From assembly GCA_013297655.1 (NCBI GenBank), contig JAAFHV010000051.1, forward strand, positions 1 to 41,961: 41,961 bases of DNA, in the 5' to 3' direction. Shown one piece after another: positions 39,440-41,215 of this stretch. The notes below the pieces were generated by a model that made no database searches, had not been told where the DNA came from, and worked only from the letters and a program-made list of their open reading frames with translations. Position 1 is the stretch's first letter. Each line of letters opens with the position of its first letter. The DNA is from Myxococcales bacterium (GTDB taxonomy: Bacteria; Myxococcota_A; Polyangia; Polyangiales; Polyangiaceae). The position numbers and the translations under genes are program-made.

Positions 39440-39788
39440 GGTGGGCGCCGATTGCAACGCAGGTGCCACGCATGGATTCGCGAGACTCGCGTTTTTATTC
39501 CAATAACAAAATGTCAGACTGGCACCGCGGCTCGCGAAGTGGGTCGCGCGGGCTCGCCAAGTTGACAAATGCTCTCGTCGCTGGCGCCCATGATGGCCAT
39601 TTTCGTCGTGGTGCCAAACGAGGGAATAATCGCCACGCGGCCTACGGGGAATGGCCCCGAACGCGGTGGGAGGGGCAGGTGCCCGCAACGCGGCGCTGAC
39701 GCGGATCTTCGTGAAGACGGTGCTCGGGTTCTACCGCGAACGGGGTGGTGGACCTTCACGCGGACAGAGCGGTGCAATGGTCGCGGTT

Positions 39789-39815
39789 TACCCCTTCGGG
39801 TATCACAAAGCGCGT
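39789..39815 (+). repeat. 27-bp in-frame insert, copy 1
   Basis: Reads YPFGYHKAR in the frame of the IS91 transposase, between VAV and QRTSSD, where relatives have continuous sequence. Differs from copies 2 and 3 at four positions. Contains CCCCTTCGGG, which can form a short UUCG-loop hairpin. Confidence 0.7.
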
Positions 39816-40282
39816 CAGCGAACCTCTTCCGATCTGAAGCTGGACCCCCACATCTACGCGGTGTTCCTCGACGGCGCATATCGGGACAAGGGCGACGAGC
39901 TCGACTTCCGAGCCGTTGGGCACCTGTCGACGCGCGACGTGGCGGCGGTGCTCGAGAGTACGCGCGACCGGATGGTGAAATACCTACGTCGTCACGGACT
40001 TCTCCAGGACGGCGACTCGGAGGATGAGGGCGACGGTCTGGCCGTGCTCGCGGCATCGGCCGTCTTGGGCACGACGCCACCGTCCGGTGCCTCGTTGAGG
40101 GCGGCGCCGAGGCGCGCTGCCCTTCGAAAGACGTCCGATGGTGTTCGAGCGCCCGCTGTGCGCCGCTCTCGACGGCTTCACGCTTCACGCCGCGACGCGC
40201 GCCGGCGGGCACGACGTGGCGGGCAGGGAGGCGCTGCTGAAGTGCGCCTACTTGGCGAGCGCGGCCCGCGGTCGCGCAGGAG

Positions 40283-40309
40283 TCCCCCTTCGGGGATCAC
40301 GAAGCGCGT
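40283..40309 (+). repeat. 27-bp in-frame insert, copy 2
   Basis: Reads SPFGDHEAR in the transposase frame (between PAVAQE and RVTRGPDG). Identical to copy 3 over all 27 bases plus the next C. Length is a multiple of three, so the frame is kept on both sides. Confidence 0.75.
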
Positions 40310-40444
40310 CGGGTGACACGCGGGCCGGACGGTCTGGTACGGATCACCCTCAAAAAGCCATTCTCGGACGGCACGGTAGCGGTGGACATGGATCCACTCT
40401 CGCTCCTCAGCCGTCTCGCGGCGTCGGTGCCAGCCCCCCGCTTC

Positions 40445-40471
40445 TCCCCCTTCGGGGATCACGAAGCGCGT
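40445..40471 (+). repeat. 27-bp in-frame insert, copy 3
   Basis: Reads SPFGDHEAR between VPAPRF and HTVRYAGVL. Identical to copy 2. Neighbouring bases share no target duplication longer than one base (C following in all copies). Confidence 0.75.
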
Positions 40472-41059
40472 CACACAGTTCGCTACGCGGGCGTCCTTGC
40501 CTCGGCGCGCAACCGGAGCCCCGTCTCGCGCCAAAGCCCGCGGTGGTCCCGCCGGAGATCGCGGCGGACATGCCCGAGAGACCGCGCCGAGGCTGCTATC
40601 GCGCGTGGGCCGAGCGGCTCAAGCGAACGTTCGGGTTCGACGTTCTGACGTGCGCCTGCTGCGGGGGGAGGATGAAGCTGCTGGCGATCGTCACCGACCC
40701 GCAGAGCGTCGCTCGGTACCTCCAAGGCATCGGCGAGCCGACGGAGGTGCCGGAGCGAACGCCGCTCGTGGACCTCCATACTGGCAGAGTCGCGTGCTTC
40801 GGCGAGGAGCCGGCAGCGTCGAGGCTGCCGAGTAAGACGTGCGCAAGGCGGCGCGAAGCCGCGTTGCGTCCGCATCCATCTTGCTCGGGTTCGGCAACCT
40901 CCGTGCCTGGGTCGAATCGCCTCGGCAAAGGCCATCGGGCACCGTGCAAGTGCACGGCGCCACGCTCTCCCGACATCCGCCAGCTTGTGAAAAGTGGCTT
41001 GATTCGCTTACGCGTCCAAGGACGCCGAGCGCGCGAGCGTCGTTCACGGAGAGCTCAAG

Positions 41060-41215
41060 ATGCAGAAGAAGAAGAAGAAGAAGAAGAAGAAACTGGACGA
41101 GAACGAGGAGACCCGAACCGCTGGTCGTGGATCAGAAGTAGAAGTCGAAGTAGGATGTCGGTGTGGCGACGTCGAACAAGCTGTCTATCTACGTTACTGG
41201 ACGGCCTACGGTTGA
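41060..41215 (+). CDS. Small polylysine-start ORF over an (AAG)8 microsatellite
   Basis: 51 codons from ATG 41060 (GGAGAG seven bases ahead). The first residues are MQ followed by nine Lys encoded by (AAG)8-AAA (41066-41092), then an acidic stretch and GCRCGDVEQAVYLRYW. The stop at 41213 lies inside the next gene. The repeat length could change by slippage without breaking the frame. It may be only a chance frame; the ribosome site is the main support. Confidence 0.3.
   Translation: MQKKKKKKKKKLDENEETRTAGRGSEVEVEVGCRCGDVEQAVYLRYWTAYG
41064..41092. repeat. AAG trinucleotide microsatellite
   Basis: Eight uninterrupted AAG units plus AAA, within otherwise high-GC DNA. Trinucleotide slippage would change the encoded Lys tract by whole residues. 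Confidence 0.85.

Follow-up and report, generated by a model that had tools for sequence, protein, structure and literature searches.

A probable 27-bp mobile element with two hairpins, found three times in a degenerate IS91-type gene and dispersed among myxobacterial genomes

Introduction

The closest known systems to the element reported here are the small dispersed repeat (SDR) elements of Nostoc and its relatives, followed by the Rickettsia palindromic elements (RPEs) and the REPs. The SDR elements, described from Nostoc by Elhai et al. (2008), are reportedly 21-27 nt long, and an RNA route was reportedly proposed for them in cyanobacteria. To our knowledge, how elements of about 25 nt move has yet to be explained, and evidence that they are mobile has usually been indirect. 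Hairpin inserts of similar size, the byp elements, also occur inside coding genes of Magnusiomyces mitochondria. SDRs have been mentioned in the literature (PMC3116915). RPEs are hairpin repeats of ~150 bp that lie in frame in unrelated protein-coding genes (PMC10969869). The GTAG- and CGTC-tagged REPs are short stem-loop repeats, some of them intragenic; CGTC REPs have no known transposase and are defined by a CGTC that immediately precedes an 8-9-bp stem on its 5' side and by a 3-bp tail (PMC3733652).

We analysed a stretch of 41,961 nucleotides from a Myxococcales bacterium (contig JAAFHV010000051.1), referred to below as the window, where a sequence-only reading had noticed a 27-bp repeat inserted three times into an IS91 transposase gene. 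Like the SDRs, this element was very small and dispersed (~81 distinct sites), kept its structure through compensatory changes, nested in its own copies, was confined to one bacterial group and had no known enzyme. It differed from them in phylum, and it showed exactly empty sites, in-frame copies within conserved enzymes, unequal pairing on the two strands and a preferred C(A/G) target. The earlier reading had likened it to the RPEs while stressing its much smaller size, and the comparison by description agreed: the insert was a precise, frame-neutral hairpin sequence found in frame in unrelated ORFs, but of 27 bp rather than a ~150-bp palindromic unit, and in myxobacteria. It was not a GTAG REP, since the consensus lacked GTAG and the RAYT family (PF01797) was absent in 9 of 13 carriers, nor a CGTC REP, since its stem had 5 bp and no CGTC stood 5' of the stem on either strand; two hairpins and an exact 27-nt unit further set it apart from the REPs. 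It resembled MITEs in being non-autonomous and presumably moved in trans, but had neither terminal inverted repeats nor a target duplication and was several times smaller. In the one IS91 lineage examined, that of G084, the right end showed no similarity to it. Because the SDR features matched while the RPE size and the REP definitions did not, we call it a myxobacterial very small mobile element.

Results

Copy 1 of the element (TACCCCTTCGGGTATCACAAAGCGCGT) occupied positions 39789-39815 of the plus strand and was inserted at GTT^CAG. Copy 2 (TCCCCCTTCGGGGATCACGAAGCGCGT) was found at 40283-40309 in GAG^CGG, and copy 3, exactly the same as copy 2, at 40445-40471 in TTC^CAC, both also on the plus strand. 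Thus, the three 27-bp copies, two of them identical, were as first described, and no match to the repeat appeared in any of 100 shuffles. Together with the C that followed each copy the repeat unit was 28 nt long, and the first copy was 89% identical to the other two. A paralogue on another contig of the same genome (L032), 83% identical with the inserts left out, aligned by BLAST with three exact 27-bp gaps at TTC^CAC, GAG^CGG and GTT^CAG, and a partial second paralogue (L033) was also empty at the first site. Since these sites were exactly empty, the window insertions were 27 bp long, precise and without target duplication, in line with the earlier statements that the inserts were missing from relatives of the gene and that no flanking duplication beyond one base was visible. 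Most simply, to judge from these alignments, the insertions would postdate the split from L032.

The host was a degenerate IS91-type (Y2) transposase gene with several frameshifts, extending approximately from 39651 to 40835 on the plus strand according to ORFs in different frames, BLAST against the paralogue and a BLASTP cluster. The IS91 assignment made from the sequence stood, as the gene clustered by BLASTP with an intact transposase carrying Y2_Tnp and Zn_Tnp_IS91 (L068), but the ORF was not intact and no Pfam family scored in the window gene fragments. Because the IS91 homology passed through several reading frames in the ORF list and in the alignment to the paralogue, we regard the host as a pseudogene, and a frame-neutral insert was therefore without consequence in this copy. 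The claim that each insert kept the frame was thus correct locally, in a gene that was itself frameshifted.

Fifty-four distinct 27-mers aligned without gaps. Read on the minus strand relative to the window, they followed the pattern A-CGCG-CTT-CG(T/C)G-A-NNCCC-N4-GGGNN, for which both RNAalifold and single-sequence RNA folding gave the structure.((((...)))).(((((....))))). In copy 3 the hairpin H1 (CGCG CTT CGTG, its second pair being G.U or G-C) lay at 40460-40470 of the minus strand, with equivalents at 39804-39814 and 40298-40308, and the hairpin H2 (TCCCC GAAG GGGGA, with a covarying 5-bp stem) lay at 40445-40458 of the same strand, with equivalents at 39789-39802 and 40283-40296. The UUCG loop proposed earlier gave way to the register backed by covariation, a TCCCC/GGGGA stem with the loop CTTC. 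A pseudoknot between this loop and the tail GAAG was considered and dropped, as the loop variants CGTC and CTCC did not covary with the tail. No Rfam family matched at the element. In G085, an 8-bp expansion inside the hairpin produced 37-nt matches at two loci (L088, 1549-1585, and L089, 1470-1506).

The outer stem pair was UA in 18 variants, CG in 17 and UG in 17, the next pair was AU in 29, CG in 20 and GC in 2, and a further CG pair had become UA in four. The observed covariation score was not reached in any of 500 shuffles. Kinship of the sequences inflates such counts, so the strength of the covariation is best judged from the three pairs that changed on both sides, and the stem covariation could partly mirror a few ancestral subfamilies. 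Moreover, compensatory and G.U changes preserved both neighbouring hairpins on the bottom strand (97.1% of cells paired), whereas the top strand kept them less well (87.2%): read on the top strand, 17 outer pairs turned into C.A and 33 of the 54 variants lost a pair of the second hairpin. This asymmetry is the main ground for proposing that one folded strand is recognised, and a folded single strand was probably the active form. The asymmetry was compatible with DNA and RNA alike, because G.T in single-stranded DNA and G.U in RNA both fit it.

Among 184 genomes of the window's order, 19 matched the 27-mer with up to two mismatches, some single two-mismatch matches possibly being due to chance, and the reversed pattern matched none. 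The presence of the 27-mer in related genomes, which the sequence-only reading had left as a question, was thereby established. A covariance model recovered up to ~30 copies per genome in some carriers. When 379 genomes sampled more widely from the phylum were searched, 7 matched, including a genome from outside the class that held a single copy. Outside the class, a single good copy was seen in G214 (L183, C187:587-615, E 6e-10), and the other ten searched members of that family had none. An exact scan of ~85,000 species found the sequence in 21 stretches. Every one lay in a myxobacterial-type MAG, with titles naming Polyangiaceae, Sandaracinaceae, Nannocystis, Myxococcales or Proteobacteria, and the record titled Proteobacteria matched the assembly of G057, a member of the window's order. 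Viral contigs gave no match. Congeners differed: G084 and G085 were carriers and G086 had no match at two mismatches, while G097 and G099 had high copy numbers and their congener G098 had nothing even by the covariance model. The spread of the element among myxobacterial genomes was thus patchy. Nearly all carriers were MAGs, mostly draft; G084 was near-complete in five contigs and G096 was less complete.

At ~81 distinct sites the first base after the insertion point was C in 81% and T in 14%, the second was a purine in 80%, and the upstream bases were nearly free. Insertions occurred in both orientations, mostly before C(A/G). In nested copies, a whole element separated the 17-nt left part of an outer element from its right part, and the nesting reached up to three or four levels. 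Such self-insertions were found at L003, L064, L066, L071 and L073, where homologous sites with a single element served as empty controls. In 18 of 75 empty sites the insertion point fell in a hairpin loop closed by a stem of 5 bp or more, whereas local C(A/G) positions predicted 9.7 such cases (P 0.005). This excess came from G084 and G085 (8 of 14, against 2.3 expected), and outside these two genomes the preference was not significant (10 against 7.3). At several G084/G085 sites (L105, L117, L118, L088 and L090), copies lay in the loops of terminator-like hairpins such as GCCGGC...GCCGGC.

Many copies were antisense to genes or intergenic. Pfam-supported frames, used because codon-usage frame prediction was too noisy, ran through the element in an M3 peptidase, LysR, protein kinases, G6PD, TruA and A2M, as well as in RsmE, a TPR protein, SCO1, IS66 and IS91. 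For inserts close to the N-terminus (G6PD, RsmE, TruA and an FAD oxidoreductase) a misplaced start could explain part of this support. With copies in so many unrelated genes and in intergenic DNA, the special tie to IS91 suggested by the window was not supported. The question whether copies always sit in frame inside genes was partly trivial, since 27 is divisible by three; copies lay in frame in conserved genes, and others lay in non-coding DNA. The clearest case was the M3 peptidase, in which the insert lay inside the catalytic domain (QSRIPPVGDHEARDGD being the peptide that spans it). Five orthologues, the nearest of them 82% identical, lacked exactly those nine residues, which answered whether orthologues would be without the insert, and the solved homologue 5l43 had the same gap, which fell immediately before the HEFGH motif. 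Ribosome bypassing, the other parallel drawn from the sequence, left no sign: five of the six frames were open, many copies were antisense or intergenic, and the codons before the inserts (GTT, GAG and TTC) did not match the last insert codon (CGT), so the element differed from byp elements in having no matching take-off and landing codons.

Discussion

Copies of the element were dispersed, and homologous sites differed in whether they held one; insertion was precise, without target duplication and in either orientation, and copies nested in one another. Mobility by insertion is well supported by these comparisons of sites, more clearly than we know of for its analogues, and at 27 bases the element is among the smallest known mobile DNA. 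With good confidence, we consider it a non-autonomous mobile element that is dispersed by precise insertion, its mobile form probably a folded strand that would be served by an enzyme in trans. The mobile form would be the bottom strand, as single-stranded DNA or RNA, which the enzyme supplied in trans may recognise, copy and insert into DNA, perhaps favouring exposed hairpin loops. Insertions in genes would add nine residues and may often survive, because 27 nt make nine codons and five of the six frames are free of stops.

As for the enzyme, a single-stranded DNA element moved by an HUH transposase, either a Y1/RAYT enzyme as for REPs or the Y2 enzyme of IS91, was a possible but tentative reading. 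The folded strand, the strand specificity and the lack of target duplication, which are typical of HUH transposition, fitted this reading, and IS91 genes frequently carried copies. Among genes neighbouring the copies, only IS91 recurred widely across carriers. On the other hand, of 13 carriers searched, 9 gave no match to Y1_Tnp (PF01797), the near-complete G084 among them, and in G121 and G096 Zn_Tnp_IS91 gave no match and no Y2_Tnp was among the matches listed. The constant right end of IS91 in G084, the one IS91 lineage examined, was unrelated to the 27-mer. Accordingly, RAYT/IS200, absent from most carriers, was set aside as the mobiliser, and so was IS91 as source or obligate mobiliser, given its right end in G084 and the lack of an IS91 match in G121 and G096. 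Since most carriers were draft MAGs, such absences weakened each enzyme family without excluding it.

Several IS91 copies on contig C2 of G084 (L144-L155) shared one constant right end (...GATGGAAACTCCTACGCGC) and had differing left ends, as expected for rolling-circle transposition that terminates at variable points. At L154 the left boundary fell inside a 27-mer copy, but this was a single duplicated event and was therefore left out of the evidence.

Somewhat less likely still was an RNA-mediated retro-element, in which a 27-nt bottom-strand RNA would insert into RNA or DNA and a reverse transcriptase would copy it. The strand specificity of the structure, with G.U pairs present in many variants, pointed in this direction, as did the comparable route reportedly proposed for cyanobacterial SDRs. 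However, G.T pairs in single-stranded DNA would give the same signature, and none of the carriers G085, G097 and G107 matched the reverse transcriptase family (PF00078); the less complete G096 gave no match either. On this ground the enzyme was set aside as the mobiliser. Insertion into mRNA alone was excluded because gene insertions occurred in both orientations.

It was quite improbable that the element was a peptide-coding module kept for its nine added residues (SPFGDHEAR or TRFVTPEGV). Over 28 supported sites, orientation and phase were distributed as +0 in 13, +1 in 2, +2 in 2, -0 in 7, -1 in 4 and -2 in none; only the -2 frame through the element has a stop, and the absence of -2 insertions was not significant by itself (P 0.07). 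With the window excluded, 9 of 13 sense insertions were in phase 0, against 22% predicted from target sites (P 4e-4), which would favour such a module. We read this preference as tolerance of the peptide SPFGDHEAR rather than as a property of the mechanism, since insertions were found in five frames, in both orientations, in pseudogenes and in non-coding DNA, and conservation tracked the bottom-strand pairing and not the codons, the stem covariation being independent of the encoded residues. Finally, an assembly artefact or a chance repeat in one transposase, which the confinement of the 27-mer to this gene within its own genome might suggest, could practically be dismissed, as the element occurred with exact ends in independent MAGs from several studies, including the five-contig G084, and reversed controls gave no match.

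This element family offers exact empty sites, nested insertions, a strand-specific structure and carriers together with non-carrier relatives. Because related genomes of both kinds are at hand, the mobilising enzyme can be searched for by comparison of gene content. Short peptide cassettes enter conserved enzymes by insertion and could feed protein evolution. It is conceivable, though we hold this loosely, that a free-living lineage harbours an active 27-nt element with a two-hairpin strand that is moved by an enzyme other than Y1, Y2 or reverse transcriptase and brings nine-codon cassettes into working enzymes.

The window organism itself was probably not an active host, because its copies sat in only one IS91 gene: its 9.9-Mb genome had no copy beyond the three of the window at up to three mismatches, and a reversed control pattern gave none. 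These copies possibly arrived together with this one IS91 copy. Downstream of the pseudogene, at 41060-41092, the window also contained a run of AAG repeats that would encode polylysine, or polyglutamate in another frame.
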